From NCBI GenBank assembly GCA_963922205.1, contig CAWUHX010000227.1, forward strand, positions 62,001-126,000: a stretch of 64,000 nt of DNA, in the 5' to 3' direction. The DNA comes from Romanomermis culicivorax (lineage: Eukaryota > Nematoda > Enoplea > Mermithida > Mermithidae). A program made the translations under genes and the position numbers. The notes under the pieces were generated by a model. It did no database searches. It was not told the DNA's origin and was given only the letters and a program-made list of their open reading frames with translations. Positions within the stretch are counted from its first letter, which is position 1. Each line of letters starts with the position of its first letter. Of the stretch, positions 6,856 to 60,832 are shown piece by piece.

Positions 6856-7085
6856 TCCCATGACTCAACTTCTAAAGTTTTACAGACTGTTCAGATTACA
6901 AACCGGCCACCCCCTCAGCTCAAAACTGCAAAATGCCAACAACAGGCACACCAAACTGACCAGAACGGAAAACAATAAAAAATCCCACGACTCAACTTCT
7001 AAAGTTTTACAGACTGTTCAGATTACAAACCGGCCACCCCCTCAGCTCAAAACCGCAAAACCCCAACAACAGGCACACCTTCAAT
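6856..7085 (+). repeat. Tandem duplication, about 127-bp unit, two copies
   Basis: The sequence from 6856 recurs from about 6983 with only a few substitutions; both copies contain ACTCAACTTCTAAAG and end near ACAACAGGCACACC. It lies between the gag stop and the envelope frame, where pol would be expected, and may mark the deletion or recombination that removed pol. Confidence 0.85.
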
Positions 7086-8806
7086 AAAAAATTATGTTGG
7101 TCCTTGTTTTGTATCTTTTTCTGTAATAATAATCCCCACATTGTGTAGTGCCCAATTTCAGATCTGTGGAACTTCATTGAGCAGTCACTCCATCAGCATA
7201 CCAAAACTTGTATCATGTATGCCCCCTTCCACAGTAGACAAACCAGTACAGACATTGGGAAAAATCTGTATCCCCTTCACTAAACCTCACATAACAGATG
7301 CATACAAATGCAGTGTTCGCAAATGGAAAATTTGTACTAATACTGGATTTTTTGGCTCAAAAGGTATTGTCTTCGACCAAACTGAAATGCAAAATCTAAC
7401 CCCGCACGTTTGTAAGGCAATTGTTATAGACAAAGAACACAACGGTCAAAAATTATACAAAACTCAACCAGGATTTTGGTCAACAAACAACTCCCTAAGT
7501 GTAGAGTACACATGGTGTTGTACAGACCACTGTACGTCGGTCACTAACGTCATCATAGAAATAGGACAAATAGCATCTTGGAATGGAAAATCAATGACAG
7601 GTACATTAGGTGACCTGGGGTCATGCAAACCAAAATCAGGCCATTGTGTCACGGCTGACGGATCCATTATCTGGAATGAAACAGCATTCGAAAACTTATG
7701 CCCTTTAGAATACAAAAATACACATCCCATAAAACTGACACAAACCCACATGATAATAGAAGAGCTACAAGGTGCATTCTCCCTCAAAAACACACTCTTT
7801 TCGAACCCCAACTGCCCAGAAATCCAAGACAGTGTCCTAACTGAACAGGGCATTATTGTGCAGTTAGACAAAAGAACTCCACATGGTAATGCCTTTTTTA
7901 ACCCCACAAATCAACGAAACCCATACTACACTCTACGATTTTGATGATTTTGAACTCATTAACGCAAAACTAAACTATCTAGCAGACAAAATCCAGGAAT
8001 TCAAAATCCAAAACTTCAAAAACGTATGGAGTGAATTATGCAGACAGGCACAGCATCACCTTGATCTCGTATGGCAAATTCTACGCCTTGATGCAACCCT
8101 TGGGGTGCGTGCATTCCTACAGCAAACCGACATAATAGCAGAATTCACAGGAGAAGCCCTCACCGTCTGGCCCTGTAAACAAGTAAACGCATCTAAAGTC
8201 TTTTACAACCATAAAATCAACGAAACATGCTACAAACTTTTACCTATTCTGGTGGGAACCAAACTCATGTTTTTGAACCCAGGAGGAAACGATTTGACCC
8301 CTTTCTCACAAACCGTTGACTGCCATCACATGCATGTAGCCCTTTACAAACAGAATAATACATGGGTCAGCGAAATGGGATCCCCACATGTTACTGATCC
8401 GCCCTTAGAAATCTTATTTAACCAAAACTTTTCCCTCTTTCATTTCAACACACCCGCAATATTTCATGATCACCTTGCAACAATTTCGACAAACTTACTC
8501 TTCTTAAAGCAATACATTTACAAAACCCACACCCTTGAAAATGTTGTTAAAAAACTCATCAATTACATCGCCCAAATGTCTCTTAACTCAGATACAGTTT
8601 ATAATATGATCTCAGGCAGTGGCCAAGCAATTGGAAATACCCTCTCCACTGCCGGTCAAGGCATAGAACATGTAATAACCGGCACTACCCAAAGCCTCAC
8701 AGTACTGCATGTGATAGTCATTTATCAAATATTATTTCATTTTCATAATTTATTGTCTCAAGGGTGTCTGGGATTCACACCCAAACATTCCTGTAAAATT
8801 ATGTGA
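7081..8806 (+). pseudogene. Viral-type envelope glycoprotein of a retroelement, frameshifted
   Basis: Two long overlapping frames are consecutive parts of one glycoprotein. Frame 1 is open from about 7081 to 7944 and frame 2 from 7883 to 8806, so one frameshift lies between roughly 7883 and 7944. The N-terminus is a hydrophobic signal-like stretch (FVSFSVIIIPTLCSA). The ectodomain has many paired cysteines and several Asn-x-Ser/Thr sites. The C-terminus has a Gly/Ser/Ala-rich heptad-like region, then a short hydrophobic segment, then stop TGA 8804-8806. The cysteine pattern and its position after a gag suggest a captured envelope. I infer a class III fusion glycoprotein, loosely of the gB/rhabdovirus/chuvirus kind, mainly from the Cys layout in the second half. 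Glycoproteins of this type are known in BEL/Pao-like elements of insects, but lineage here is only an inference. Confidence 0.55.
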
Positions 8807-15399: not shown

Positions 15400-16381
15400 G
15401 GCAATCAAAAGGTTTGACCTTCTATGGCAAAGTTATAATATGGAATTACGTGATATCCTCAAAGTTAATCTACAGCTTTATTAACTTGGAGGTCGACCAA
15501 AGTTTTACTTAAAAAAAGCAAACTACGTAAGTTTATTTGGAATAATGCAACATCAAAAATTAAAGCCAATGTAATGATAAAAAACACTCTGCCCCATATG
15601 GAAATTATAGCAACAGCTCTGAAAGCAAAATGGCTAAAAAACAAAAAAAACAAAAAACAAAAAAATCTACAATAACAGACACCTAATCAGAGCTTTATAA
15701 AAAAATTTGAGGACATAAAAAATGAAGGATGTAAAATCAACTGGTATGACTACTTAATTAATTTATTCAATCCCAAAACAATGGAAAGCAATAATGAAAG
15801 GGTATTTCAAGAAAAAAACGGAGGTAGATGACTTTGCACCCCAAATAATGAACCTCAAGGTAGGCAATGTTAAAAGTAGCACGGTTAAGAATAGGGCATG
15901 CACTCCACCAGGAGAAATTTTTTGGAAGCAAAGATATATTAACACAAATGATAATTTCTAGGAATATTTTAAAAGTTGATAGTGGGAAACAAGTACAAAC
16001 AATTTCAATTTAAAATTTTACACAACATACTAATTACAGGACGTTTGATGGAAAAATACAAAATAAAAGCGGCAAGCCCGTGCTACTTCTGTGACGAGCC
16101 AAGTGATGATATTTCACATGTGTTCTTCGAATGCCCAGTAACAAACTTTTTTTGGAAAAGCATTCCAGGCAAGTCACGTCACAGCACTAAAATTACTCAA
16201 GAAACTATCATATTAGCCTACTCTGGGAATGAAAAAAACGATTACCTGCAAGCAGCAAATCTAGTACTAATTGAAGCAACGTTTTTTTTTGTACAAAACT
16301 CGACTATCAAAGATGAGACAGTGTCCAACTGCTCCTCCCTTTTACCTTTTGCCTTAAAAAAGTGGCATGTGCTTTTGTTAG
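15400..16381 (+). pseudogene. 3' end of a LINE (non-LTR retrotransposon) ORF2, decayed
   Basis: From about 15976 an open frame carries the zinc-binding C-terminal motif seen downstream of LINE reverse transcriptases. It contains FKILHNILITGRLMEKY, then CYFCDEPSDDISHVFFEC ending in TNFFW, giving the C-x2-C-x7-H-x4-C pattern of the zf-RVT type. Upstream (15.4-15.97 kb) further pieces of the same protein appear in different frames with stops, for example KAKWLKNKK and WYDYLINLFNPKT. The remnant ends where the DIRS-type element begins at about 16382, so the DIRS element may have inserted into it. Confidence 0.65.
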
Positions 16382-16514
16382 TCTACTTCAAATGCCTCGA
16401 CTTAACTAGCGTATGTGTCATCCGATTGGCCAACTCTTAGCTCGATTAAAAGCTCCGCCTAAAATAAAGTTAAACACTGGGTAAAGTTCCCCCATTATCA
16501 TAGTTCATTCGAGC
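16382..16514 (+). repeat. DIRS left inverted terminal repeat
   Basis: Nearly identical, in inverted orientation, to 21236-21370. Shared words include GTTAAACACTGGGTAAAG, CCCCCATTATCATAGTTCA and GGCCAACTCTTAGCTCGA. The outer end starts near TCTACTTCAAATGCCTCG, which recurs inverted in the internal complementary region. Confidence 0.85.
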
Positions 16515-16545
16515 TGGCTAACTTTTAGCTCGTTTTTATTTTTCC

Positions 16546-17937
16546 ATGTCATCACGTTCTGTTTGTTCTAAAGCGCCTTTCGGTTCTTTTAATATGTCAT
16601 CTTTGCATGGTGCTCTTTCGAGCCACCATAGCTGCAGTGTAGTTCATCATGGATCAGCTCATCGACGTCATTCCAGGCGCAAATCGTCTTCCAGTTCGTC
16701 TAAATCGACCGATTCCGGAAGTTCTTCAACCATTTGCGGTTCTACTGCAAATTTGTCATTGGATAATTGACACTTAGTTTCTTTAATCGACGAGAACGAT
16801 TCTTCTCAGGCTCAGGGTTCCATTGAACCAATTATTGAAGGTTCCTCCTTAGAGGTTTTTCCTTCCGACAATTTACAACAAGGTTCCATCAAACCTATGA
16901 CAAATCCGGAACCACCTTTGATGGTTCGAGATAATGGCTCAGTTCAGCTGGACTCTGCTTCTATGCATTCCGTTCTAAAGAAGCCTCTGCTTCATTCCAA
17001 TAACCCTTTGGTTTTGGATGACAATTTAAGCCTGATGTCAGCCAGCTATTTGGTTGATCGCAAATATTCACGATCTGCTCCTTCATCTTCCAACGAAGTG
17101 GCTATTCCGACTGTTTCGGATTCCTTGAAACTGGAATGTGAATGCTTGTTGCTTACAAGCGGGACCCAGGATGTGGTTATATCAGAAGTACGAGGTTATT
17201 TTGAGGATCCTATGTTATGTTTGGAATGTTACTCGAAAATGTTGGTTCCAGTTTCCCCAGTGGCTTTAGCCCCAGTTATAGACGAGGACCTTAGATCTTT
17301 CTTAGGAAGAGACAAGAAATGGGTTATTAGAAAAGATGAACACTTTCGTTATTTACAACAGTCTGTCGTTGAATGAGCCTACCCGTTGGTGGGCGTAATT
17401 GATGAACAGGATCAAGGATCGTTTGACCAAGTTTGTGCTTCTAATGCTATTAAGCGCAGCCTTCGTCACATCAGCTTCATTTTACAGGATATCCTTTATG
17501 ACAGGCGCTACAAAATTCTATAAAGTGTGGAAATAGTAAGCTATTTGTTTAAGGACATTGCGTCCATGCCTGTTTCATCGGAGGAACTGGTAGCCTGCTG
17601 TAGAGATACAGACATGATATTATCGCCACCTCTACTCTTTGGCAAGTCTTTGTGTGGCAGTTTCAAAGATCATCGTCATAAAAATGGCCTGCATGATGCT
17701 CTCAGGAAATTGTCATCTTTTGCACCTAGACAATCGTCGGTTCATGGGTTTGAACCCCCTTCGTCTGTTCATGGTGCATCGCATCAACATTCCCAAAGTT
17801 TGCGTTTCTATTCCAGCACCAGGAAGTTTTGGGACCGTACTATCCATTCTGGGGATTCTTTCTGGTACCGAGTGCAAGATTTTTGCATCTTGCTCATTCC
17901 CACTAATTGCTGGCCGCTTAGCTTTTTTCCTTACTAA
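16546..17937 (+). pseudogene. DIRS ORF1 (gag-like), broken
   Basis: Begins ATG TCA TCA at 16546 just inside the terminal repeat. The product is Ser/His/Arg-rich at first (SRRKSSSSSSKSTDSGSS), then acidic and hydrophobic, with an in-frame continuation interrupted by stops at about 16768, 17374 and 17521. DIRS elements carry a poorly conserved gag-like ORF here; the assignment rests on position and composition. Confidence 0.6.
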
Positions 17938-17979
17938 TTGGTCTAGATCGACCTCTGATAGATGGTCATTAAACACAGT

Positions 17980-18836
17980 GTCAGGCCTACAGATCAAATG
18001 GGAAAGTATTCCACCTAAACAGAAAGTTAGGCCTTTGCCGATCAATTTTCACCTCAAGATCAGTCTGTAGCATCTAAAGAGTTCATTTTCCTTTTTGTCT
18101 AAGGGTGCTATCGAACCCGTACCTTCTTCTATCGTCACTTCTGATCTTTATGTACCTCGTTTAGTTTTCCCAAAAAGAATGGTGATATGCGCCCAGTAAT
18201 TAATTTGTGACCCCTCAATGCTTATGTAAAATATGAGCATTTTAAAATAAAAGGCATCTTCATGCTAAAAGATTTATTGCATTTGAACGATTGTATGGTT
18301 AAAATTGACTTGAAGGATGCTTACTTTGCTGTTCCTATTCATATAAATGACCGAAAGTTTCTCTGTTTTGATGTTTTGAATGGGACAATCATTTGTATCA
18401 GTTTACATGCATGCCCTTTGGACTTTCTTCAGCTCCACGGGTTTTTACGAAATTATTGGAGCCTGTAGTTTCTGCTTGTCATCAACTTGGTATTCGCATA
18501 AAAATTTATTTGGACGATATGTTAATTTTAAATGCGTCCTATGAGAAGCTAAAAGCTGATGCCCGTTTTGTGAGGTTTCTTTTGGCCCAGCTCGGCTTCA
18601 TAGTTAACAGTGAAAAATCGGAATTGGCGCCAAAGACGTCAATCACTTTTCTCGGTTTCATTATTTCTTCCAAAACTTCAACACTAAAAATTCCGCACGA
18701 TAAAGTTGATGACATTTTAAGGCAATGTATTTCTCATCTACATAAGCATACTGTAAAACTGCTTGTCGCAGCTTGTTTATTAAGAAAATTCGATTCACTT
18801 AGTCAGGCTTTGTTACGTGCTAAGTCTATTCTCTAG
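17980..18836 (+). pseudogene. DIRS reverse transcriptase, broken
   Basis: Recognisable RT blocks in order: a conserved Lys-Asn-Gly-Asp-Met-Arg-Pro-Val-Ile-Asn block at about 18174, KIDLKDAYFAVPI at about 18301, FTCMPFGLSSAPRVFTKL at about 18398, the catalytic YLDDMLI block at about 18508, and LGFIVNSEKSEL plus FLGFIISS at 18588-18670. Frame changes near 18390 and stops before 18240 break the ORF. The set matches DIRS/Ngaro-type RT better than gypsy or LINE RT. Confidence 0.85.
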
Positions 18837-18959
18837 AGAATTGCAGGCTTGCTTGATTTCTGGTTTAAAACAACAAAATTATAATCACCACATTATTCTT
18901 TCATATGAAGCCAGAAAAGAACTTGAACTTTGGTCTGAACAGTTAAATTCCTAGAATGG

Positions 18960-19350
18960 TAGAAACATTTTTCCAGACCCTGTTTCTCGAACCATCTTTT
19001 CAGATGCTTCTGATGACGGCTGGGGCGTTTTTTGAGATTCCCACAAAGCCGATGGTCTCTGGAAAAACGATGAATTAAATTTGCATATAAAGTATAAAGA
19101 ACTTTTAGCAGCCTCTACGGCCTAAAAATTTTTGCTTTCATGCATGATAATTCTATAGCTATTGCCTACATCAACAAGCTAGGTGACACTAAAATAGATT
19201 CCTTTGCCATTTGTCCATTAAAATTTGGTCTTGGTGCCTCGATCGTCACCTGAACATTAAAGCAACACATATTCCTTGAGAATTTAACATTGAAGCTGAT
19301 TGATTATCCCGAAATTTTGCTGACAGCAGTGACTGGCATTTGAATGCAGC
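18960..19350 (+). pseudogene. DIRS RNase H region, broken
   Basis: After the RT a segment encodes IFSDASDDGWGVF, the first RNase H block with a catalytic Asp, then a Lys-Tyr-Lys-Glu-Leu block at about 19088 that supplies the expected Glu. Several stops follow. RNase H downstream of RT is standard in DIRS elements. Confidence 0.65.
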
Positions 19351-19572
19351 AATTTTGATTTTTTAAATGAAAAATGGGGTCCTCCATTGATCTTTTTTGC
19401 TTCAAGGCATGATGCCCATTTAGAACATTTTGTTTCATGGAAGCCAGACCCTGATGCTTCTGCTTTTGATGGTTTTACTCTTTGCTGGCATGAATTTTTC
19501 GCTTTTGTTTTTCCTCCTATAGCTTAAATTGGCAGGACTATTCAGAAATTTAGATTAGACTCTGCTACAGCT

Positions 19573-20694
19573 GTGCTAATTGTTCCAGTTTGGCCGACTC
19601 AACTGTGGTGGCCCCAACTGCTGACTCTACCTGTGGTTTTTCCTTTATTGCTTCCCCAAATGCCGGATCTTCTATCGGACCCATCGGGGCTTCCTCATCC
19701 CCTCGTGCTAAACAAAATACTTCGCCTTTCGGCTTGGAAAATATCAGGAGTTACTGGCAGACCAGCGGCATTACAAACGAGGCTGCCGACATCATGCTTC
19801 AATCATGGTCTAGCAGAACACAGAAACACTACAATTCGGCCATTAAAAGTGGCATCGCTGGTGTTCTCGAGGATAAATCGATCCATTTCGACCTGCTGCA
19901 TGCGAATTAGTTCACTATTGCTTTTGCATAAAAGCAATCTAAAATACAGCACCATAGCTGCAGCTAAATCAGCTATTTTTACCTATTTAGGTGAAATTCG
20001 CTGCGACCTGACAAATATTCATTAATCACACGTTTCTCGAAAGGATTTTTTAACCTTAATCCACCTAAACCCAGTTATGCCTCAACATGAGATATTGCTC
20101 TTGTTCTTCATTTTTTGAAAGATCTCTGGCCTAATGTAACTCCCATTTCCCCTCAAGACTTGAAGTTGCTTACTTTAAAATCTATCATGTTGTTGTCGTT
20201 AAGCTCCCCAAAAAGTGCACCTGAAATTCAAAAGTTGGACATTCGTTACATAAAATTTTTCGAGGACTTTATTCTTTTACTATTCCAGCGATTACTAAAA
20301 CCATACGTGGTGGTCCTCCTGTTTCTTTCAAAATTTTCAAATTTTCGGAATCCCGTTTATGCCCCTACATTTATTTTCAGCTCTATCTGGATGCAACCAA
20401 AGCAATCAGTGGCTCTGAAAGTCGATGTTTTCTATCCTTTTTTGAAACCTCAGAAGCCGGTTTCCACTGCGACAATTTCCTGTTGGATTAAGACGATTTT
20501 GCCCCTTTCGGGCATTGACACCAGTTTTTAAAGCACATTTAACACGCTCTACTTCGGCTTCCAAAGCTTTTGTTTCGGGCTGCCCACTTGCTTTTATCCT
20601 GTCATGCCAACTGGAGTTCCCAGTCCTTAACTTCAAAGCGGTTTTATCAGAGGGATATAGACTTCTTACCAAATTACACGAATTTTGTCTTTGA
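19573..20694 (+). pseudogene. DIRS tyrosine recombinase, broken
   Basis: Recognisable pieces in several frames: SWSSRTQKHYNSAIK (about 19806), a TWDIALVLHFL-type helix (about 20087), KLLTLKSIMLLSLSSPKSAPEIQ (about 20163-20230) where the first catalytic Arg is expected but appears lost, and AHLTRSTSASKAFVSGCP (20534-20587) with the conserved His...Arg pair. The last block continues to a final Tyr-Arg near 20657. Tyrosine recombinase replaces integrase in DIRS elements. Stops and frameshifts make it non-functional. Confidence 0.75.
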
Positions 20695-28100: not shown

Positions 28101-31100
28101 CTTATCCACTGCAGATTTGGGCAGAACTGCGTCGATTCCTGAGAGGTACACGAGAAATTAAATGCTGACCACGTAACCGAGCTATTGAAGGAAATTTTCA
28201 GCCATTATGTTGCTCACTGACGAGAAAACTTTTTCATCATTTACGGTAACAAGCTTACCAGTTTTTTCTGATATTCAGGTCATTGCATCGATCATTTCAA
28301 AATGAACGGGGTACAGTTGAGTACTCAGCCCCAATAAAATAAACTGATATCACACTAGCTCTAAACTTTGGGGTATGTGATTAGGATTTCCCTATGGAAC
28401 AAAACTTTTTGATACTTTTTAGATTTAAATTAGGGAATCATGGACACCTACTGGTACAGTCACCAATGTCATATGTCCAAATCCATGTGGCTGGCACATC
28501 AGAAAAATCATGCTCAGTGTGGGGCTCGAACCCTCGACCACCTGCATACAAGGCAGACATGCTTTTCAACTGCGCTCACCGAGCATCGTGGATTTAGGCG
28601 TACAACATTGGTGACTGTCCAGGCCCTTCTTCCTCGAAAGAGAGTGGAGTGTAATAGTGGTGCCTCTCACTGTTCATTACGCGGCATGCCCCGCACTCAC
28701 CACCATCACTACGACCAAAATTTCCGAACCATTCACGTGGCCCATTTAGCATACTTGGATAGTGTGTCTGCCTTGTATGCAGAAGGTCAAGGGTTCAAGC
28801 CTCTCACCGAGCATTATTTTTCTGATGCGCCGGCCAGGTGGATTTGGGCATACGACACACCTTCAACATGGCATGGGCATGTGAGGGAATTGACAAGAGT
28901 TACTCAGAACTATAGTCCTTGGAGTCGGCAGAGAGCGAAAAGTTATAAGTGGTTCATTTATCATTCAATTCTACTACCTGGGATCTAATCCATGCAAGTA
29001 TTCCAAAGACTCACTCAATTAACATTTGTTACTAGTTCTTACTGTAAATTTCGTGATTTTATGCGAATTTCGTTTGTAAGTTATGCTCTCATAGCTGAGG
29101 ACAAATCTTGCTCCCTAAATCAACCAACAGTGAGAGACTCAACATGACCGTCTGAAAACCCTTGCTGATGTCAAAAGTCACAGTATTTGAGGAAAACTCT
29201 TGCAAATCTCACTTATAGTTCACACATTACAGCATTTCAGACAAGAGACTGAAGATTTTATGTGAGCATGAGACGCCCATTAAAAAATTCACGAACTGAA
29301 AGTTGCAGCTGAATGTGCAATTAATGACAAAGTGAACGAATTTCGCAAACGAATGACACCCTAGATGACGTTTCATGATACGGATTATCTGAAAGTTTGT
29401 ACAATCTTCAAAATCGTGGTATTGTAGAAAATTTTTCACTCCAAAAGACGCAAGATGACTAGATGCATTTGTCCTGAAAGTTAACCACATTATTCTTACG
29501 TAAACAGATTACTGATTACAGATGATGAACAATCGAATACAAAAAACAGCTCATATTTCGATCGCCTTATAAGCACCTTGCCCAGCTGCAAACCAAAAAC
29601 TTTGCCCAATAAGCTGGGTAGCATGCTTAGCGAAGTTGTCGATACAACACCCGATTGCGTAAGAGTTTTCTATAGTATACTTTTCTCAAAATTCTTGTAA
29701 ATAAGCAAATATGTATTATTCCATGTTTTTACGATATTCTGATAAACCATATATCACAAAGGACTAAAAAAGACTAAATAAAAAGTAAATTTTCGAGCAT
29801 ACTCAACCAACCTATAACAACTTCTTAATGAAAGTGCTTATCTTTTCATTTTATAAGCATTTATAAAAACAGACTGTATATTCTGCAACCTTTTTCCCTG
29901 CACTGCGACCTTTCTCCTCAGAATCCAATGACCACGCCCGAGCAGGTAGCAGCCAAAGTGATGAACAGTCTAGGCGAAACTTGGATAATCGTTGCCGTGG
30001 TTATAGCATTTCTTATCATTTTGTTTTACAGGCAAATCAATTTTTGTATTCTCATTCACATTGAACATTAGCGACTGTATATTTTCAGAGAGAAGACTTA
30101 CGAAAGTTATCTACATATGTGGCAATTGTTTTTCATGTTTATCGTTCATCTTTTGACGTTGCTATTCGCCATGAGGACCGACCTATACGTAATTTATGGA
30201 TTTGTGTAAAAATGTCTGAAAGTTCTTCATTGATTTACAACATAGTAAGTCTCATGAATGATCAAGACGACCATCATAGGAACATCGTGCATCGCTCTAG
30301 TAAGCTGAGCAATGAGGAAATTTCTTGGAATGAACACTTACATTCCTGTACTGTAGTTGGTGTTCAGATGCAAATTCCAGATATTTACGTTTCGAGGGAA
30401 TGTGTTCAGGTGTAAATTCCAGATATTTACATTTCATAGTGTATTCAATAGTCTTACTCAAATAATATTACACTAATATTTCTTGCCGATAAATCATATT
30501 TACACTAAAATTTGCATAAATTTTGTCTGGAGGTAAGTTGGCTTATACCTGATATTGTCATGCAGGTCTTTCCTTGGAGATAAAGAAAGATGGTTGTTCG
30601 GGAACTAGTTAGAACTTCTCCTCGGCTAGGCCTCGGATATAGTGCAACAGACTCGCCCAGACCTGGCAACAACAAACAACAAATAATAGCAAAGGGGCCC
30701 TCACAGAGCCGACCCGGTAGACTGCCAAAGGAAAATGAATACTCACTGGAAGGAACAACGTAGAAGTGTCCCTGAGTAGTCTGACTTCTACTTGGCGTCT
30801 GCAACAGATGACACCTGAGCCTGAAGCCCTCCATGTACTTATGGTACGCCAACGCAATATGTAAATCTATATAATAAACAAATAACAATATCTAAGAATG
30901 TGGACGGACCACTAAATGTTTATGTAAATTAAAAAATAGACGCTGGGATAAAGTTGAATGGTGGGCGCCAGCATAAACACTAAAAATATAATCAAAAAGC
31001 AAGAATGATTTTTTGTTCTTTTTTTGGTGCTCCCTTGCTATGTAAATTTGTCTGCGCCACCTATCGCCCATCGCTGATTTGCATGTCGACTTTATGATCA

Positions 31101-46423: not shown

Positions 46424-49400
46424 TTATTCGTATTGACCGCTCGACCAAGCATAATATTCTTCCTCTTGAGCTTTTTTGACGTTAGCTTGCGACAAAAGTT
46501 TATTTTCGAATCCGTTCGACCGATCCACACCGTCCCACCTGTAACCCGGTAAAATTCCGTAACGGTTGGCCGGCGCTTGACCTTTGTATTTCGGTTTGAT
46601 GGAAACTAAAATAATACATTTTTTAAATATAGAATTTGGTAAAAATGAAGACGCACTTTCTGAGATTTTACATTAAACTTCCATTGACGTATGATGAGTT
46701 GAGTTTTTTTAATTTTTCAGTGTTTTTGGTTCATAAATGGCATCTACGATTATATCAGCATTGAAAGAGACAACTCCATGGTCAAACCTTCAATATGAAA
46801 ATACTCCATGATTTTAGAATAAAACATTTTACACTTTGTCAAGATTATGAAGTTCCAAAAAAGTGCACTTTTTCTTCATTTCTGTAGCTGATCTTGACCA
46901 ACATGTTCTGCTGAAGTTGGAATAAGATTTTCGGTATCTTTGAACGTTGGGTTACTGTTACTAAACAATGCAAATTTTGATTTTGGTATAGAATAAATGT
47001 CGCCGAGCTACACAGCATACAAAATATCAGCTTTTTAGGTAAAACTAATTGTTGACTCATCACAGACAAAGTCGAACTTTTTGAAGAAGTTTGGAGAAGA
47101 ATTTGTTAAATTTATCTTTCAAACTCGAATTTCGTAGAAATAATACTAATTTTCACAAAAACTCGAAATTTGCGACACAATTTCAATTACCTTTAGGTGC
47201 ATTCCCTGACGATTTATTTTCTGCAACGGCTTTTTTATGCATATATTCGCTCATCGGATCTTCCTCGAGCAATTGAGTTTTTAAATGTTCGTCTAGATCT
47301 TTGTCGTCGCGATACCTGGCTAAAGGTTTGTCGATTAAATCGGCCATTTCGTCCAACTTTTCTTGACGATCTTTGACTTGTTTTACTCTAAGATTGAAGC
47401 ACACATCTTATATAATTTCTGAATTCACATCATTCTATTTCGCATCGGAAATTTGATTTGCACTTTTCTCATAACCATAAAAATGCTAGACGCCCTGAGG
47501 CCTTACTACATGATGTGTCCTCCTGAGACCATACATGTAATTGGGGGGAGTGTTGCGACCTACCGCAGGATTTTCCAATCCTATGGCTAGTCATATGGTA
47601 GTCATAGGGACCCCCATAACTTTGGTCAGAAAAATACTGGAAAGTATCAATTTTTGATATGAAAAATGTCAATTTTTGAACAAAAAATGGTCAAGAACGT
47701 CAATTTTTTCGGCGCTTCGCGCCATAAATACATTTTTTATCGTTTTAATAGACAAAAATTACGATTTTCTGAACTGTTTTTCGGAATTTTTAGGGGAAAA
47801 AATCGAATTTTTCTCCCTTCACCCAAAATTCTCGCGAATTAAACACATTCGGCCCCAAAAAACGTCGTCCGATCCCCCCCCCCGACCTCAGGACTCCGTT
47901 ACATGTATGCTTAAGACGTAACTTTATCATGAAAAAATTATGTCTCAACTCAAGACACACCTATGTCCTGACACACTATTCAGAAACGGGCTTTGGAAGA
48001 TACACAAAAAACTTCTAACCCTTTATTCCAAACTTCGTATTTTTTCTTCAGTTCCTCTTGCCGTTTCTTCTCCTCTTCAGTCAATTCGCGTTTCTTTTTT
48101 CGGCCGCGATCTTTATCGTATTGAGCTTTCCGTTTTACGGGTTCGTTTAATTTTGAACTATTATTATCGATACGAGACGAACGTTCAGAGTTTTTCGATT
48201 TACGATCTTCGTTATTTGTACGATTCCTGTCGACGGAAATATCTGAGTCCGAGGAATGTCGACGACGTATTTTGCAAGCTATCGTTTCTTCGTCGGGTTC
48301 GGCTTTTATGATTTGTCGATTTGAATCTTGGTCATTTCTTGAAGCTAAAAAATCGACTATTTTCCACAATTTTACCACTACAACATTTGTGAAATATTCA
48401 ATGTACATATCAGTCGTTAAAGCTTAGGCGTATATGTAGGCTTAGTGCTTACGACGCAAAATTTATAAAATTTAGTGGTCGTGACATCGTAGAAAAAGTC
48501 CAAAAAAACAGTTATCAAATTTGAAATGGAGTATAACTTTAGACGTTTAATTTAACTCTTATTTTGTAGATTCTGTTGGAACTTTCTATTTTCGAAAAAT
48601 CATATTGCTTTTTTCGTGAACAGCATTTCTTCAAAAACTTACCAAAATTTTACATACGAAAAACATAATAAAACATAGATTTTCAAGAAACTTCCCCCCA
48701 ATTCTGATTATGGAGTCATTGTAAAATTCGAATTTTCGGAATAATAATCTTTGTGCTTCAAAGAAATCGAGAAACTTTTTGAGCTGTGTTTTCCATTTTT
48801 ACCTTTAGCAGTCTTGCTAGACCGTCTTTCCACGGACTGATCAGAATCTGATGAATGGCGACGTTTGTCACTCAAAGTTCTTGTTTTTTCTTTCCTGTTA
48901 CGTCGCCTTTCCACTGATTTATCGGAATTTGGAGAACAATGACGTTTCCTCCCAGAGTTATCATCGTTTTCTTTTTTAGTCGGCCGCCTTTCTAACGATT
49001 GATCAGAATCGGATAGGTCGTGACGTCGTCTTTGCTCTGTTTTCTTCCGCTTTTCGATCGAATGATTCGACGGGGATCGACTTTTATTACGACGACCAGG
49101 TTTTTCTAATGATCGATCAGAATCTGAAGAATCGTGGCGTCTAGATTTTTCTATTTGACCATGTCTGCTACGTTTAATGGATATGTCCGAATCGCTAGAA
49201 TCGTGACGACGTCTTTCTAATCGATCGATAGGCTCCACTTTGATAGGTCGATTGTTATTGTGCACATCGGAATGGCTTGGTGAAGGTGAATTAATTTCCT
49301 GTTTGATTTTTGACAATGTATCTGCAAAGTTTTCCACATTTAAATTTTACTAAAATAAAAAATTCTAATGTCTACGAAACGTTGGAATTGTCGCTATTTA

Positions 49401-52400
49401 ACATCGATAGAAATTTGAGCGTAATAGCCGTATTTATAACTTAGAAAGGAAGGAGAAAGGTGAGATTCCCTTCATCTGAATCGTCACAAATACACACATG
49501 TACGCAGAGATCCCCAAGGTCAGATTTTTAAGGTAGGGTTAAAGTTGAAAATTTGCCCGGGTAGTGTACCACCAAACACGTCATTTTGTCCCAGAATCAG
49601 GCAACTAGTGATCAATTTTCGGGACTTTAGGTAGAAAATACCCCTCATATCCCTCCCTATGGGGTAGTCGGCATGTACGTATAATTTAGGTATTACCTTC
49701 TGGATCAACATTATTCCAACTCGTCGATTTAAACTTTCCGATCATTTTTAATTCATCGACGCGATTATTGACTAATACCACGATCGGTTCATCTTCTTCT
49801 TCATCATCATCAAGTATGGAAATTTCGGCATCGTCATTTGATTTGAATGATAGCTTCCCGACGTTGGCCATTTTGCTGGTTTCCTGATCAATTGTCGTTC
49901 CGAAATCTTCGTCCGCGTCGACAATTTTCATTCTGAGGAAGTGAAAACACAAACATGTAAACGGAAGTCCAACATTTGGTGAGTCAGGAGACTTTTAATT
50001 GATGAGCTTACTGATGGAGGGTTTTACTGAAGGGAAATTTTTCAATTTTTCCATCTGAAAAGTCCGAAAAACGGTTTAAAAATCGTATTTTAGTGAAAAA
50101 AATATATGTATTTATGGCTCGCTATTTTCGACCGTTTTCTGTTGACAGAAGACTATTTTCAACCAGAAAATTAGCAATTTCAGTAATTTTTCGGCCAAAA
50201 ATTTGGGTTGCTTTCAGAGGTCTCCAAGGTCAGATTTTTTAGGTAGGGCTAAAGTTGAAAATTCACGGGGGTAGTGAAGCTGAATGTCCACTAAAAACGT
50301 CATTTTGTTTCAAAATTAGGCAAACAGTGATCAATTTTAACGACTTTAGGTAGGGGTAATACTCCCCTCATGCCTCTCTCTATGGGACAGTCTGGTTGCT
50401 TTTCTGTGGCTAGTCCATAGCATACATGTAACGGAGCTCCGAGGTCTGGGGGGGGAGGTTGGAGCACTTTTTTGGGGCCGGGGGTCAGTAATTCCCAAAA
50501 TTTTGGGGGGAGGGGTCCCTGAAGGGAAAAAATTCGATTTTTTTCCCGAAAAATGTCCGAAAAACGGTTTAAAAAGTAGTAATTTTTTGTCTAAAAAATG
50601 ATAAAGTATGTACTTATGGCGCGAAGCGCCGAGAAAATTGACGTTTTTGACCATTTTTTGTTCAAAAATTGACATTTTTCATGGAAAAAATGACATTTTT
50701 CAGTATTTTTCCGACTAAAACTATGGGGGTCCCTAGGGCTACCATATGGCTAGCCATAGGATTGGAAAATCCTGAGGTGGGGTCGCCCAATGGCTAGCCA
50801 TATGGTCGACGATTTCTGGGGGGGGGTTCCCATAGCACTTCCTCCCCCCAATTACATGTATGGTCCATAGGTCTCCAAGATCAGATTTTCCAGGTAGGGT
50901 TAAAGTTGAAAATTTTCGGAGGTAGTGTTTATGGCTGAATGTCCACTAAATACTTCGGTTCGTCTCAAAAGTAGGCAACCAGTGATCAATTTTCAGGACT
51001 TTAGGTGGGAGTAATACCCCCTCATATCCCTACCTATGGAGCAGTCTGGGCTAGTGCATTATATGATTGACAAATCTTTGAAACCATCATATGACTAGCC
51101 ATATTTTCAACGATTTCTGTAGGGGGATAAAGCGGATTTTGGGGGGGGGGGAAGGTGATCGATTAGGAAGATACTTGGACAAAAAAAACATATTTTCGCC
51201 AAAAACCGTTCAAAAAATAGTAATTTTTGCGTAAAAACCCGTAAAAAATGTAACTATGCAAAAAATATGACAAAAATATGGCATTTTTGACCATTCTTAG
51301 TTCAAAACTGGTCTTTTTTATCAAAAAATGACATTTTCCCGTTTTTCCGATTAAAAAGTATGGCGGTCCTCATGGCCCCGGTACATCAAGTTTTTCTATG
51401 GAGGACTCTTATGGCACTTCCCCCCAATTACATTTTTTGTTTTTTGCACGAGTCTTTTTGCCAATCGGCGAGAGAGAGAGAGATCAAAATTTGTCGGCTC
51501 AAAAATATTTATAGATACTTTATTAATGCTTTTAAATCAACTCAATTATCATCCATGATCGGGAAAGGCATATTTTCCCGTCAATCAAAATATTTCATTG
51601 AGGAAAAACAGTACAGCAAATGGGATTTCGAAATTACTTCAAAATTTTTCTTTAATTGTTTTCATTTATTCGGCATCGAAATTAATATATTCTTGCATGC
51701 TTTCTCACAGCGGTTTTGTCGTTCACGGACATTTTTGACAATTGACACAAAAGGCCAAAAAATTTTTTCCAATAAAACAGAAAGTTTTTATTGTTAAAAA
51801 CCAACTGAGAACTGGGAAATATTTTTGGCTAAAAGTTCGACAAAAATGTAGGTAATTAAATCTTACTTCATTGATATACGTGAAAATTATCGTGTCCGTC
51901 CTATTTTTCATAAATTCTTACCAGTAAAATAAGAACAGCATAGAAAAGACTGTTTACGATCCACAGGGAATAGAATGCTGCGAGAATTCTAATCTACCTG
52001 TACAGAATTTTTCAGGAAGTTTATATTTTAGTTTAATTTTCGGCTAAGAATTTCTTTCTAACAACGTTGTAAAGATTTAACATACCATAATTGCTTACTC
52101 CTGATGAACAAGTCGAAAGTGGCTTAAATTTTTAGTAGAAAAATTGATCATCATTGAGGTTGATTTGATCACCATTTGGATCAAACAGGGTTTTTTACCT
52201 ACGAGTCACAAGCCAAGTGGCTTGTTGAACTAAAATTTTACAAGCCATTCCAAATTTTTACAAGCCAATTTTATAATATCGGCATACGTGAATGAATTCC
52301 AATGCTAGGTTATTTTTTAAAGAAATGTATATATTGAGCATCACGGCAATCGATCAAAAAAAGAGATGTCATTCAACATTTATTTAATAACATTTTAGAG

Positions 52401-55400
52401 CCGTTAATTCATTAAAATTCAGGAAACAATTGAAATTTTTGAGTTTGATCGAAGTCTAATCTACAAGCACTGTAGAACAAATTTCCCAGTAAACTATCCG
52501 AGAACATAATGACTTTGAATTACATGAGAAATCGACGGTTAAGTCCTCTATGATGTAAAGTGAGAGCCCAAAAAAGCTATTAATCTTTCCTGTGTGAAAC
52601 GCCGGAAAAATTGTTTGGGTATCGACATTCTGCGATGCTGGATCAATTTTCCAAACACTTATTTGAAGAATTAGATTCGAATTTTCTGTTCAAAAGTCGT
52701 AATTTCTAGAATTTTATGTTCGAAAAATTTTAAAACCATTATTTCATTCACACACTCTCATGAACTTGGCCGAAAAGATATGAGTAGAAATTTCCGAAAA
52801 CTACTTCCATGCAGCTTTTGGATTGATTTTACGTTAAGAAAAGAATAATCGCTTCAAAAAGTTTACAGACTTGACGTATTGATCTTCCTCAAAAAATGTG
52901 TCAAGGAAAAAATGTAAATCTTCATTAAATATCAAGATGAATTATTGAAGATTACGAATTAAAACATGAGATAATACGTTTAAGATGATTAAAACTATTA
53001 AAGATTAAATGATAAATGAAGGTAGACATGTTAGAAGCGGCGCCTGAGCTGGGAAATAAATAATAATGCTTATTTAAGTTATAACCGGTGCGCGCCGGAA
53101 AATTTTGAGATTATGACCTTCTAAAATGCACAAAAATGCATCTTTTCTGTATCCGATATGATCAAACACATGAGTCAAAAAATTCTGACAAGCCATTTTG
53201 GCTTGTTGGACTAAAATTCTACAAGCCATTTTGTCAGTCCAACAAGCCATGGCTTGTAAAATGCTAAAAAAACTATGGAATCAAACACCAGAAATAAGAA
53301 TTTTTGTTCTCAATCCCACCAATGAACACAATATTCAGAATTTCTATTCATTCTTCAGTCATTGATGATTTAAAAGTTTGCTGCAATAATACAAATATAA
53401 TATTCGTCGAAAATGTGCTAGGGCCAAAAAAGGAGTAGATAAGTTTCCAGACCACTGTTTTTTCCCTCAAATTGTGCCTTTTCGGAAAAAAAAATCCAAA
53501 GAGGGAAAAAATTTTAGGCTCTTCCCCCATTTGGGGAAGAAAATTTTGGGGATCGGATACAGAAAAGATGCATTTTTGTGCATTTTATAAGGTCATAATC
53601 GCAAAACTTTCCGGCGCTTCGCGTCGGTTATAACTTTAATTATCATTATTACGTATTACCTGGCTCAGGCGCGGTTTTTAGCATGTCTACCTTCATTCAC
53701 TACTATAATAGTTTTCATCATCGTAAGCGTATTATTTCGTGTTTTAACTGATAATCTTCAAAATTTTATCATGATATTTAATGAAGATTCGCATTTTTTC
53801 CTGACAGTTTTTGAGAAAGATCAATACGTCAAGTATGTAAGCTTTTATCGCAATTATTTCTTTCCTGATGTTAAATCAATTCAAAAGCTTCATTGAAGTA
53901 GTTTTCGGAAATTTCTACACTTTTTATTCATTAAAATTCTAGAAATTACGACTTTTGAACACAAAATTCGAATCTAATTCTTGAAATAAATGTTCAGAAA
54001 ATAGATTTTCTAGCGTCGCAGAATATCAATACCCAAAAAACTTTTCCGGCGCGTTTTTGAGCTGTCACTTGTCATCATAGAGGACTTAACCATCGATTTC
54101 TCATGTAATTCGAAGTCGTTATGCTCTTGGATAGTTTGCTGGAAAATTTGTTCAACAATGCTTGCAGATTAGACTTCAAACTCGAAAATTTCAATTTTTT
54201 CCTCAATTTTGATGAATTAACGGCTCTAAAAACACCAGAAGGCATGAAAAAGTTCCGAAACACTGAAATAAAGCGTCTATGAGCATTTATAGGCGAAAAA
54301 ACGACTTCGGGAAAATAGGGGGGGAGGAAATTTGACCCCTTTAACTATTTGAGGAAAAGGGAGAAAAGGGAGATATTTGGGAAAATTTCCCCCATTTGGG
54401 GAAAAGGCCCGGGGAAAAAAACAGTATTTCAGACTCAAATTTGAAATGCCTAAAAGTCAAGGAAGTTCAACGTCTAACTAGCCAATGGCAAAACGCCAAA
54501 AATTTTTATGCCAATCGTCAAAAAATATTTTGGCGCAAATAGTTAACTTCCACTGTTCATTCAGTGGGATTGGAAACTGTGTTTTTTTGCACTGTGCAAA
54601 ATTTTTTCCGCTCGTGCAAAACTTTTTTTTCAGGTTTTTTGCACTGTGCAAAGAAATATTTATCAATTGTGAAAAAAAAATGTTAAATCAGTTATCTTCG
54701 GTATTGCGTCTGAGTATTTGACGCATTGTTTTTTTCCACATTTGCACTATAATGTGGAAAAAAATCTGGAATGTGGAACAAATTTTTTAGGTCTTTCCAC
54801 AAATGTGGAAGAAAAAATTGGGGTTTTCATATAGAAAAGATGCATTTTGGTGCACTTTAGTAGGTCCAAATGGAATTGACATTGTTGGCACAATTTTTCA
54901 ACCAAAAATTTACGCGACGCGACTTTCGGCTTAGTTTTTTTCAGGATAAAGCAATTATGAACATCTTTAATTTATTTGCGTCGGTGTTGAGAAAAAATTC
55001 GTACCCGAAAATTAAAGAAAAATATGAGATGCCTGAAAAATTCTATATAAAAATACTGAATTCTCGCAGCATCCGATTTCTTTTCGAATCATATAAACTG
55101 CTTTCTCCATCAATTTTCTAATTGCACCTGTTGACGAGCTTAAACAAGAGTTGGCAGTTGACACGATTTTTATGCAAATTGGTGGTGCGGCGAAAGTATC
55201 TTTGGTCATGTTATGATTTTAGGCTGGGAAAATTTTCTTGTGCCATTGACACAATTTTTTTGGCCCTTTGTGCCAATTGGCACAAATGTCCGTGCACAAA
55301 AGAACGCTGTGACACTCAGAGAGACAGACAGACTAACCTTGGAACAACTTTAGGTTTAATCTTTTTCTTGCTCTTGGACTTCGACTTTTTTATATCCTCG

Positions 55401-55444
55401 TTTGACAAATATTTTTTCAGGTAATCATCCTTCGAAAGCGCCAT
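46424..55444 (-). CDS. BUD13: BUD13 homologue (RES complex splicing factor), complete
   Basis: Six exons join in phase: 55444-55338, 49932-49697, 49321-48803, 48344-48020, 47387-47191, 46605-46424 (TAA). Total 1566 nt, 521 residues. Exon 1 gives the conserved start [17 protein letters not shown] plus a Lys-rich stretch. Exon 2 starts [11 protein letters not shown], the MxIVD block of BUD13, and is acidic. Exons 3-4 hold repeated [11 protein letters not shown] units. Exon 4 ends with a basic helix and YEVWNKG. Exon 5 carries the [17 protein letters not shown] block. Exon 6 has [20 protein letters not shown], the signature C-terminus. BUD13 with Snu17/RBMX2 and Pml1/SNIP1 forms the nuclear RES complex that promotes pre-mRNA splicing and retention. 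The gene looks intact. Intron 1 is 5.4 kb and full of repeats. A diverged partial duplicate lies just upstream, fused to a BEN protein. Confidence 0.95.
47530..47909 (+). mobile_element. hAT-like MITE, CATACATGTAA family, copy 2
   Basis: A 380-bp copy in BUD13 intron 4. Ends CATACATGTAATTGGGG and CCGTTACATGTATG. Flanks CCTGAGAC and CTTAAGAC agree at six of eight positions, a decayed 8-bp target duplication. Confidence 0.8.
50421..50862 (-). mobile_element. hAT-like MITE, CATACATGTAA family, copy 3
   Basis: A 442-bp copy in inverse orientation in BUD13 intron 1. Ends CATACATGTAACGGAG and CCAATTACATGTATG, with a perfect 8-bp target duplication GTCCATAG (50413-50420 and 50863-50870). Confidence 0.9.
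51060..51435 (-). mobile_element. hAT-like MITE, CATACATGTAA family, diverged copy 4
   Basis: Shares CGATTTCTG followed by a G run, ATATGACTAGCCATAT, AAAACCGT and the terminal CACTTCCCCCCAATTACAT with copies 1-3, but the terminal repeats are eroded. Confidence 0.5.
51715..55300. repeat. Giant imperfect palindrome in BUD13 intron 1
   Basis: The core arms are 52392-53157 and 53552-54232, inverted to each other over about 700 bp with a 394-bp spacer. Matching words include TTAGAGCCGTTAATTCAT, GACTTGACGTATTGATC and GCACAAAAATGCATCTTTTC. Outside the core more inverted matches continue: 51960-52060 with 54985-55080 (GCTGCGAGAATTC) and 51720-51770 with 55240-55300 (CGGACATTT, GGCCAAAAAA). The spacer and flanks carry clusters of short self-complementary words: ACAAGCCA/TGGCTTGT, CCCCATTTGGGG, GCACTGTGC and TTTCCACA/TGTGGAAA. 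No protein is encoded. It may be a large foldback transposon or nested insertions. Confidence 0.7.
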
Positions 55445-56625: not shown

Positions 56626-59600
56626 TCAAGTTTTCGGTCGGACGGCGTTCTGACGTAAGTTGTAGCAGCGCTTCTGTAATGCCCTCACCGCCGTTGACCA
56701 CATCAACTCGAAATTTTCGTCGCTGCACTCTGATCTTTTTTGAACCGTTTGTCGTACGATGGTCTTGATCTCGCTCATTTTGTTTGCGTCAAGCCGTTCA
56801 ATGTTCGCTTCTGGATAGTCACGTTTAACCGAACTTGTTTTCAGGACGCTGTCGCCAAAAAAACACTGGAAAAAAGGAAAAAGAAGATATGCGAAACAAA
56901 ATCTAAAAAATACCACTACTCACATTAGTGGCTAGAGCGACTGTTAGGTCTCTTGTAAATATTGAGCAATCACTATATTTGAGCGATTTCCATTTGACGT
57001 TTTTGATGACCTCATCAGCCGACACCAAATTTTTGGTCGGCGGAATTGCTGTCAATAAAAAGAAACAAATTGTTAGTATGGTATCGAAATGATTTACATT
57101 CCAATGCACGAACAAACTACGTTTTATCGTTTTTTTCTGCAAACAATGATTAGGAACTCGTGCAGTTTGCTCTGCCAGGCATCCAATTACGCAGATCACT
57201 GTAGCCCGAATTTTTCATCACTGGAGACACTTTGAAACGATTTCGAGTGCGAAAAATCTTGCGATTTTCCCAAAAAAAAAAGATTTCTGCATTTGACCGT
57301 CTAAAACTTGTCTATAACATTTTCCGCCAAACTTAATTCATTAGCCATAAAGTTTGGTACATTGTGACAATGCTGGCGTCACACCGCCGAAAATTGTTTC
57401 GAATTTTTATAGTTTTGGATTTACGCAAACGCTGTCATCAAGTAGTTTTTTATTTTCAATAAACCAACTTATTCACGTCGTTTTGTATCAAACCAACTTT
57501 GTGCCTGATCGTGGCTTTGTGCACTGAAAGATTGACCAACTTCGACTAAAGATGGGCCGGATACAGTTTTTGGCTACGTCGAATCAGGATCCTAGAAAAT
57601 TGCTCTATCTGATCTGAATCTGGATTCGTATCAAGAAAACTCCAATCGTCGTACCCAGATCCAGAACGGCAGATCCGGCCGGATTCGCATCGGATCCTAC
57701 TATTTGAATGAATGTCGCGCACTTAACGTTCAATTAATTTCTTTTCAGTTCAAATGTTATCATGATAATCAAATTTACGCAAGATCTCAAAATCTTTAGA
57801 GGTTCATCAACTTTGATATGAGATGGGACACAGCAGATTCACGGAAGCAATCATGGATAACTGATGAATGAAACTACACTGCTTTTTGGCCGTGTTTCAG
57901 CTTAGTTGTACTGAACATTATAGGTAATTGCCATTTCTGGCGCGAAGCGTCGTCAAATATCTGCGGATCCGGATACCCAGCCCAACTCTAAGCCTTACGT
58001 CTCTTCCGAAGTTCCAAAAAATTGGCGATCTTTTCGAATGCGGCATTATTGTTCGCCAATAATTCTCGCAATTCAACTAGAGCTTTCGTGTTGGCCGCCA
58101 AGGCTTCCGCCATTAGACGAATCGCATCGGCCAATTCTTGCTCTGGCTTTTGTACTAGGTGTGCAGACTATAAAGACATAAAAATATAGTCGACCGGGAT
58201 AACTTGGGCCCATGTTGCAAAGTTTCAATTTTTGTTGATAATAGTCTGCTTTTCTGGAAAGGCTTGAAAAGAATGGAAAGCGCATCTATTTCATGTTTTT
58301 TTATCATTTCCTGCCATTCCACTGGAAATTTGTTAGCCAATCTAGCTAACCGTAAACATCTGTTGAGTTTGACGAATTTGAAGGCGGTACATTAATTTTT
58401 TGTCATTTTATAATTTACAAATTGTTTCATCATGACGTTACTTTTTTTTAAATTTCGAATTTGCTCATTTTAAAATTAGTTGACGATACACAAATTATGT
58501 AAATTTATCAGAATAAATTCACTTATACATCTTCCAAGGTGAAATGAATCGGCGCCGCATCAAGGTCGTGAATAACGTAATCATCATTGATGGTCGCTGC
58601 AGCGTTCTGGTCGAATCGGGATAAGCTCGAACTTTGAGTGGGAGTTTGGGACTCGGTGCAGATATACCCGGGATCTATAATTGTTCGGGGTAAAATTGTA
58701 TTCAAAACATTATAATTCAAAATTTTTTAAAAACTTTCATGTATTGCCTACACTACTTCTTCTCCACAAATCCCCAGCTTTTCGCTTCCTACACTTTTCC
58801 TACATACCGAAGACCAGCGAATATTCCATCCTCCCTCTATGGCATTACGTAAGCGAGAGGAGTGTAGTGCGAATCCTCATAAATCATCGGTCAAATAGTT
58901 AACCCCGTCGAGATTTGTCAAAATAAGTCAGCCATGAAAACCTCCTTTTTGGTCCAAAGAACTAAAAAGTCAACTTTTTGGTAGCTCACTGTTGAACAAA
59001 AATGTTCGAAATCAACTCACTGTTAAACAAAAATGTTCAAAAATGTTAATTCTGTAGAGATTCGCACTATAAATGAGTATTTTCATGCTTTGTTTAACAA
59101 AAATTATTTAAAGCCGCTTTTCGGACTTTTTGGGCGAAAAAAATCGAAATTGATGAGCTTCTAAAATTTTGGACAACTGATGGCCTCACCAAAAAGAATG
59201 TCGCGGTTCCTCGTAAAATAGCCTAGGTGGTCATTGCAACGTCACGATGTGCAGGGGAGACAATGAAGAAAAATTTTGAACGTACTTTTTGGTTTCATGG
59301 GGACTTGTTTTGACGACAATTTTTCAGACGATCGATTTTTAGCTGAAAAAATCAAACATTTAGCATGTTTGAAATACGATAAATTTACAACAGATCGAAC
59401 GTATAATGCCAGACGCTGAATATAAGTCTAATTTCATGAATTCCGGGGGAAGTTTTGCATTTTCGTCGAGCGTAACATCTTCCGGAATTCGCGAATACAA
59501 CGAAAATAATGAAAAATTACCCTGGTTTTGAAGCAATTGCAAAGGGAAAAATTATTTCGAAAGTGAGCCTGCGAAAACTTTCACATAGGTGGTAAGACGA

Positions 59601-60832
59601 AATGTTTCAAAATCCTCACTTTCCATATACTTGTGAGATCGGTGTCTTCTCACCGACTGCTCCGAATCCGACGAATGACGACGATGTCTTCTGTGCGATA
59701 TTTCTCTGTCGTCAGGTTTAATTTTTGTCCTTCTTCGATTTGAATATTCGACATTTTTTGACGCTGAAAAAAAGAATTCAGCACGTTTGTGATTAATTTA
59801 AAATAGTTTTATACAGTTAAAGACATAGAAAAACAAAAGCGAAACATTCTTCACGGAACTTCCATTGTAATCGGTGGAACATGTGAAATTCGAATATTCA
59901 GTTACAATGTTTGAACTTGAAGAAAAATTTTAACAATTGCTTTCTATCCTCACATTTTCTAGACCTATAAAATTGCCGTCTTTCCGTTGACTGATCAGAA
60001 TCTGATGAATAATGTCGTCCATCATCCCAAATTCCTATGTTTTCGTCGCTTCTAAACTGCCTTTCAAATAATCTAATAGAGGAACAAGGGCATTTTGTCG
60101 CAAAGTCATAATTTTTTCCTTTTCTAATCGACCGCCTTTCTAATGATTGATCAGAATCGGATGAATCGCGATGTCGTTTACGCTCGATTTTCTTTCGCTT
60201 CTCGATCGATTGATAACACAGATCAGGTCTTTCCGAAGACTGATCAGACTCAGAAGGGTCGTTGCGTCTTGATTTTTCAACTTGACTATGTCTACTATAT
60301 TTAATGGATATATCCGAATCATCAGAATCATGACTGCGCTTTTTTAATCGATCGATAGGCTCAATTTTAATTGCACGATTATTATTATGCGCGTTGGAAT
60401 CACTTACATTACTTTGGCGTTTGATTTTTGATAGTTTTTCTGCAAAATTTTTGAAATTTAATTCCTACTAAAATAAAAGTCAATGTTTAAATATGATTGA
60501 AATTGTCACTATTTCACATCAATGGAAATTTGAGCATAAAAGTAATTTTTCAGAATTTCGAGAGAATAAGAAAGATGGGATTCTATTCTCCACAAACAGG
60601 TTTTACCGTCCGAATCAACACTCGAAGATTTAAAGTTCTCGACCATGTTCGATTTATTGGCTCCATTGTTAACTGAAACTAACATCGGCATATCTTCTCC
60701 TTCCTCGTCATCGACTATGGTGATTTCTGCTGCAGGATTCGATGTGGAGGATTGCTTTCCGGCTTGAGCCGTTGAGCTAGTTTGCTGAACAGTTGTTGTT
60801 CCGAAATCTTCCTTTACGTGGACAATCTTCAT
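56626..60832 (-). CDS. Chimeric gene: BUD13-like N-terminus fused to a BEN-domain C-terminus
   Basis: Eight exons join in phase: 60832-60607 (ATG; its acceptor side is at 60833), 60439-59954, 59763-59654, 59521-59389, 58674-58529, 58167-57999, 57048-56924, 56865-56626 (TGA). Total 1635 nt, 544 residues, no internal stop. Exons 1-3 copy BUD13 exons 2-4: MKIVHVKEDFG start, EPIDRLKKRSHDSDDSDIS, five SDSD-type repeats and RRHRRHSSDSEQS, with the same intron phases. The copied part then stops at a new GTGAGA donor. Exons 4-6 are unfamiliar, with a coiled-coil-like helix (ELADAIRLMAEALAANTKAL, about residues 375-405). Exons 7-8 form a BEN domain (about residues 455-530): DLTVALATNCFFGDSVLKTS, LDANKMSEIKTIVRQ, LMWSTAVRALQKRCYNLR. 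BEN domains bind DNA or chromatin proteins. The RES-contacting BUD13 C-terminus is absent. A nuclear role is likely; its function is inferred only. Confidence 0.8.

Follow-up and report, generated by a model that had tools for sequence, protein, structure and literature searches.

A probable chimeric gene made of duplicated BUD13 exons and a BEN-like family member in the nematode Romanomermis culicivorax

We report here a probable chimeric gene in the mermithid nematode Romanomermis culicivorax, in which copied exons from the N-terminal part of BUD13 would be spliced in frame to exons that end in a BEN-like domain. The locus lies in a stretch of 64,000 nucleotides (the window; positions 62001-126000 of contig CAWUHX010000227.1, hereafter C227, assembly GCA_963922205.1), and all searches of the species' own genome were run on the 359-Mb assembly. 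The explanation which we consider the best is a partial duplication of BUD13 (exon shuffling) that probably swapped a new N-terminus onto a member of a BEN-like family of the same genome; the chimera is most likely present twice, with constraint on its BEN-like part at the least. An earlier note, made from the letters of this DNA, had proposed that a local duplication made a new nuclear gene of this kind. The duplication itself and the SD/RS tail in frame upstream of BEN-like exons have held up, whereas the argument from the reading frame is weak, details of the exons were wrong, and the BEN match is below threshold.

Coordinates are in window numbering unless C227 or a locus number (L) is stated, and both the chimera and BUD13 are on the minus strand (Table 1).

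Table 1. Modelled exons of the putative chimeric gene and its intact parent gene, in window numbering
Feature	Position	Strand	Remarks
E1, copy of BUD13 exon 2	60607..60832	-	ATG at 60832; intact in second copy
E2, copy of BUD13 exon 3, SDSD-repeat array	59954..60439	-	Phase 1 on both sides; 3-nt gap in second copy
E3, copy of part of BUD13 exon 4	59620..59763	-	Donor 59653 (earlier note) or 59619 (preferred); both kept in second copy
E4, possible exon	59389..59521	-	Weakest acceptor of 13
E5, 57-nt frame-neutral exon, absent from the earlier note	59286..59342	-	Second-best acceptor of 13 introns; its ATG absent from second copy
E6, linker exon	58529..58674	-	End INDDYVIHDLD.. resembles L028 and L029 (E 0.04-0.07; weak alone, collinear)
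E7, probable coiled-coil exon, heptad-like spacing	57999..58167	-	Resembles L028 and L029 (E 0.01-0.03)
E8, first part of BEN-like domain	56924..57048	-	0/125 differences between copies
E9, rest of BEN-like domain and stop codon	56626..56865	-	1/240 differences between copies
BUD13, intact parent	46424..55444	-	6 exons, 521 residues, PF09736 E 6.5e-40

Duplication of BUD13 exons

An alignment of 289 columns pairs residues 1-274 of the predicted chimeric protein with residues 37-324 of BUD13 (50.5% identity, E 3e-78), and the two introns which the genes share are in phase 1 in both; the three exons that had been described as copies of BUD13 exons 2-4, with phases 1 and 1, are thus confirmed in place and strand. 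All 18 matches to BUD13 at E up to 1 in the genome search fall on C227, with none on other contigs. The chimeric locus is the 5' neighbour of BUD13 on the same strand, its end being 1.2 kb short of BUD13, and the copied segment lies approximately 11 kb upstream of the parental exons, oriented as they are. The relationship extends to intron DNA, as 60583-59976, a stretch that includes most of chimera intron 1, aligns with 49468-48822 at 70%. Because the introns are alignable as well as the exons, the duplication occurred at the DNA level, and an origin as a retrocopy was rejected.

At its 5' side the homology starts at 60842, and the acceptor-like sequence just upstream of E1 matches the acceptor of BUD13 exon 2. 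A copy of BUD13 exon 1 upstream of E1 was not found in the genome search, and since there is also no homology above 60842, a tandem duplication spanning exon 1 was rejected. BUD13 intron 1 is repeat-rich beside exon 2, which may mask the border of the duplication. A repeat family is present in BUD13 introns 1, 2 and 4 in both orientations (51100-49500, 47911-47555, 37352-36946); in the chimera only a 123-base piece of it was seen, in intron 5. At the 3' side the homology ends inside BUD13 exon 4, at 59661 by BLAST and at about 59628 by local alignment, with a 4-base gap there. The copied part does therefore end within exon 4, as had been claimed, but the donor at 59653 that was taken as its limit sits inside BUD13-homologous sequence.

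The RHxSSDSDxS repeats, counted with a pattern of our own, number six in BUD13 and five in the copy. A psi-K-x-E motif, which we take to be a possible SUMO site, is part of a conserved block, HNNNRxIKxEPIDRL. No C-terminal Bud13 domain (PF09736) was reported for E values up to 1 in the chimera, in agreement with the claim that the BUD13 C-terminus is missing from it, whereas the neighbouring parent has this domain; the C-terminus of the parent matches human BUD13 in solved spliceosomes (E 2e-27).

The duplicate stayed coding and its frame was kept in the BUD13-like exons. Comparison of exons E1 to E3 with BUD13 gave a pairwise ratio of nonsynonymous to synonymous change (omega, dN/dS) of 0.41 over 273 codons, with twice the log-likelihood difference (2dlnL) at 21.0 against an omega of 1, while counting methods gave dN of 0.28-0.33 and dS of 0.49-0.66. 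The copy has zero stops as compared with 5.6-6.8 expected under neutral change of 0.25-0.33 per site, and neutral runs without stops occurred at a frequency of 0.0028 at a change (d) of 0.25 and 0.0006 at 0.33 (5000 runs per setting). All five indels in the DNA alignment of E1 and E2 are multiples of three. Over the first 200 codons omega is 0.33; constraint acting on the copy itself is suggested but not proven, because the 2dlnL against an omega of 0.5 is only 3.2. For the last 73 codons (201-273) omega is 0.70 and not distinguishable from 1.

A second copy of the locus

BUD13 and the chimera recur approximately 72.2 kb away on C227 as a direct repeat, which spans 36969-64000 of the window and C227 from about position 170989. 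Where collinear repeat blocks exceed 600 bases, their identity is 90-99% (96-97% in the two largest), and the repeat reflects either recent tandem duplication or two haplotypes joined in series. All nine modelled exons of the second copy can be read through in frame, with no stop or frameshift and with every GT/AG preserved; the sole exon indel is the one of 3 nt in E2, and the intron gaps between the copies are of 9, 6, 3, 1, 2, 26, 1 and 1. The second copy also has intact BUD13 exons 2-6. Exons E8 and E9 together differ at one of 365 positions, whereas introns differ at 56 of 2468 (Fisher p 0.008). There are three differences in the 190 positions of E4-E5 and 11 in the 315 of E6-E7, the latter not below introns, and E1-E3 show six amino-acid changes plus a one-residue gap between the copies.

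The BEN-like half

The sole Pfam family reported for E8-E9 is BEN (PF10523, E 0.0042), and E9 alone gives 16.4 bits for BEN plus a weaker BET match. A profile of four solved BEN domains scored 16.4 bits on E8-E9, which was rank 1 of 2853 scored, with none of 2000 shuffles as high. A reading of E8-E9 as exosome Rrp41 (NCBIfam TIGR02065, E 0.0028, 17 bits vs a cut-off of 318.7) was rejected by a matched control, as the Rrp41 profile gave 0.6 bits and 90 of 2000 shuffles were as high. Weaker support came from profile-profile comparison of the family with the BEN alignment (probability 67.6%). The domain assignment has to face the fact that the PF10523 score of 17.7 bits is below the curated cut-off of 23.2, that the E9 exons of both relatives tested (L028 and L029) had no BEN match at E up to 1 and instead a weak BET match, and that no BEN chain was found in PDB, either with the spliced C-terminus (E up to 10) or with the family alignment. 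For these reasons, and given the modest profile-profile probability, we label this half BEN-like rather than BEN. The earlier description of exons unrelated to BUD13 and ending in a BEN domain is thus retained for an in-frame BEN-like exon set whose residue pattern stands above shuffles, but not for the domain call, nor for the number of exons, one of which had been missed. As regards the five-helix BEN fold and its DNA-reading helix alpha5, a single-sequence structure model of E9 alone reached a pLDDT of 63 and gave no useful structural match.

Exons E8 and E9 belong to a family, probably of DNA-binding proteins, for which the genome search found 24 more loci with E values of 0.05 or less. 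Nine relatives (L028-L036), chosen by us from the hit list of the 24 loci, were fetched, and E8-like and E9-like pieces are present in all nine, as strong matches. The E6 tail and the coil were also seen in L028 and L029, where the matches are weak singly (E 0.01-0.07) and collinear in order. Upstream, all nine relatives carry a conserved N-terminal domain with the consensus VKW..N..TDG..N.VSRYLIKN..L..GD.I.ATF..K.W (L028:7821-7991, L029, L030-L036). A profile of this domain scored 53.8-107.7 bits in eight loci, five of which had trained it; those outside the training were L030 (close to L035), L034 (close to L032) and L036. One query located the domain upstream, at a distance of up to 6 kb, in 14 of the 24 family loci; of its 21 places in the genome, none is on C227. 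The profile search did not find it in the window or in C227:126001-176000 and 178001-208000, where the best score was 8.8 bits. At the chimera, therefore, BUD13 exons, placed directly 5' of the coiled-coil and BEN-like exons, stand where the BEN-like family has its own front domain, since this was present in all fetched relatives and not found at the chimeric locus.

The genome also holds a second, clearly BEN-positive set (L001-L008; 28-41 bits, on six contigs), seven of whose eight segments are mutually close, L007 being the exception.

Exon model and alternative explanations

Joining the eight exons of the earlier note reproduces an open frame of exactly 544 residues, and addition of E5 results in nine exons, eight introns and 563 residues, still in frame. 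The exon set of that note could not be upheld in detail, as it missed the 57-nt exon, used the weakest acceptor of 13 and placed its donor inside the BUD13 homology. The donor at 59619 scores 7.2 bits vs 6.2 for 59653, and joins in frame to 59342 to give 530 residues.

A number of findings speak against the connection of the two halves in one constrained gene. No acceptor among the 13 introns is weaker than that of the E3-E4 intron, at 59521, and the coding score of E4 is equalled by 9-10% of stop-free intron windows. As a control for in-frame joining the real spacer was dinucleotide-shuffled 150 times in each of six settings, and in-frame chains from E3 to E7 that were as good appeared in 23, 44, 53, 39, 33 and 37 of the 150 shuffles; frame continuity across the introns is for this reason weak evidence by itself for one gene, and the claim that seven introns keep the frame over 544 codons, while correct as to the frame, describes something no better than chance. 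The fused parse beats a parse into two genes by only 2.1-5.8 bits, before any cost for gene boundaries, with local gene-finding models whose training set was very small, in exons as in introns, and came in part from the chimera itself. The DNA alignment of E3 contains a pair of 1-base gaps that compensate each other and, towards the end of the exon, one gap of 4 bases. Between the two copies of the locus, E1-E3 differ at 11 of 819 positions, which is not significantly below introns (p 0.12), and E4-E7 look unconstrained, with nine amino-acid changes. Finally, the query for the family N-terminal domain did not detect it in 10 of the 24 other family loci, so that its absence at the chimera is not unique. 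In the genome search E4 was not matched on any contig other than C227, and the local gene-finder gave no decisive exon set. The one-gene reading is strengthened, and its parts tied together, by the second copy and by the undetected family N-terminal domain.

The locus could instead be composed of two adjoining genes, i.e., a truncated BUD13 N-terminal paralogue whose reading frame continues past the E3 donor as far as the stop at 59554 (59552-59554), and a BEN-like gene which starts in the spacer. The E3 frame is open to 59554, the junction acceptor is weak, and in the local parse there are starts that chain in frame to E7-E9, the best at 59626 (inside E3) and the next, in one training set, at 59437 (E4), where the Met is kept in the second copy. 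We nevertheless judge this arrangement unlikely, since the front domain of the family was not found at the locus, the second copy has Thr in place of the alternative ATG of E5, and there is no AATAAA or ATTAAA signal between 59700 and 58675. Alternative first exons would mean that the BUD13-like exons are joined to the BEN-like exons in some transcripts only, while the main BEN-like mRNA would begin at another place. This would be allowed by the several exon chains that stay in frame, and the 5' end is undefined because the genome search showed no copy of BUD13 exon 1 upstream of the copied exon 2 acceptor; however, the expected other first exon, namely the N-terminal domain of the family, was not found in the stretches searched, and such a use of the locus seems quite improbable. 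Hardly to be expected is decay into a pseudogene, be it of the whole chimera or of its BUD13-like part. The lack of detectable constraint on codons 201-273, the amino-acid changes and gap in E1-E3 between the copies, and the many relatives that carry stops would fit such decay, but the modelled exons are without stop or frameshift in either copy, the first 200 codons have a low omega, and E8-E9 are constrained.

Proposed product and comparison with known systems

If a single chimeric gene is present, its 5' end would be formed by the copied exon 2 acceptor and the in-frame Met that follows, and a donor in the truncated exon 4 would splice to the family exons. The product would be nuclear and about 530-563 residues long; in it, a disordered, phosphorylatable serine/acidic tail with psi-K-x-E motifs would replace the N-terminal domain of the family, followed by an oligomerising coiled coil and then by a C-terminal BEN-like fold that may contact DNA or chromatin.

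Like BUD13/Bud13p, a subunit of the RES complex, the chimera has exons 2-4 with the same intron phases and the same SDSD-repeat tail; unlike it, the chimera is without exon 1 and without the PF09736 region, which is the part that matches the chains in solved spliceosomes. Human BUD13 residues 530-557 stay visible or bound in the spliceosome (PMC10208982), and yeast Bud13p residues 222-256 were used for the Snu17p complex (PMC4192513). Lacking the C-terminal part of BUD13 that serves for entry into RES, the chimera is not expected to be a member of that complex.

Across E8-E9 the residue pattern is similar to that of the BEN proteins NACC1, BANP, BEND6, Insv and Bsg25A. According to PMC11472053, BANP has an N-terminal coiled coil, to be compared with the probable coiled coil before the BEN-like domain in the chimera, and BEN domains read DNA with helix alpha5. 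By hand alignment, the base-contacting alpha5 residues D462, T465 and R469 of NACC1 are all absent in E8-E9, so that any DNA specificity of the chimera would differ from that of NACC1. Within its own family the chimera shares E8 and E9 with L028-L036, and the E6 tail and coil with L028 and L029, but has BUD13 exons instead of the VKW..N..TDG..N.VSRYLIKN domain; in L028 a single long front exon takes the position of the several found in the chimera.

Chimeric genes formed by partial tandem duplication have been described, e.g., in Drosophila yakuba (PMC5460883), where in a similar way a partial gene copy is joined to the exons of a neighbour. In contrast to those, here the N-terminal domain of the partner would have been exchanged and the duplicate has diverged, with dS about 0.49-0.66. 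This way of gene making is thus already known, and the present chimera is probably an unusual example of it. Among open-licence papers, one mentions both BUD13 and the BEN domain, and it appears to present breast-cancer expression data. A wider proposal is that a phospho-SD/RS tail from a subunit of the spliceosome core has taken the place of the N-terminal domain in a nuclear protein of a multi-copy, DNA-binding-like family, with an orphan acceptor giving the 5' end, so as to couple chromatin binding to splicing-factor localisation, and with the chimera itself then duplicated in the 72-kb direct repeat, all of it lineage-specific; taken as a whole, this appears doubtful.

Should the locus be transcribed as one gene, it would be an instance of N-terminal domain replacement whose history can be traced: with the parent, the recipient family and a second copy all in one genome, one could follow step by step how a disordered tail from the spliceosome came to be recruited to a DNA-binding-like protein. 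The analysis also exposes an expanded BEN-like family, the N-terminal domain of which had no Pfam match at E up to 1 in the four pieces scanned.

Other features of the window

At 7003-8806 there are two overlapping open reading frames, the second of which matches a Monjiviricetes fusion glycoprotein (PF24664, E 1.7e-19), and these are perhaps the envelope gene of an integrated element. Pieces of reverse transcriptase are present at 15973-20531 (zf-RVT E 2.5e-10, RVT_1 E 6.3e-15), which we presume may be DIRS-like. Two tRNA-like matches, at 28511-28584 (-) and 28740-28813 (+), are located on opposite strands 155 bases apart.

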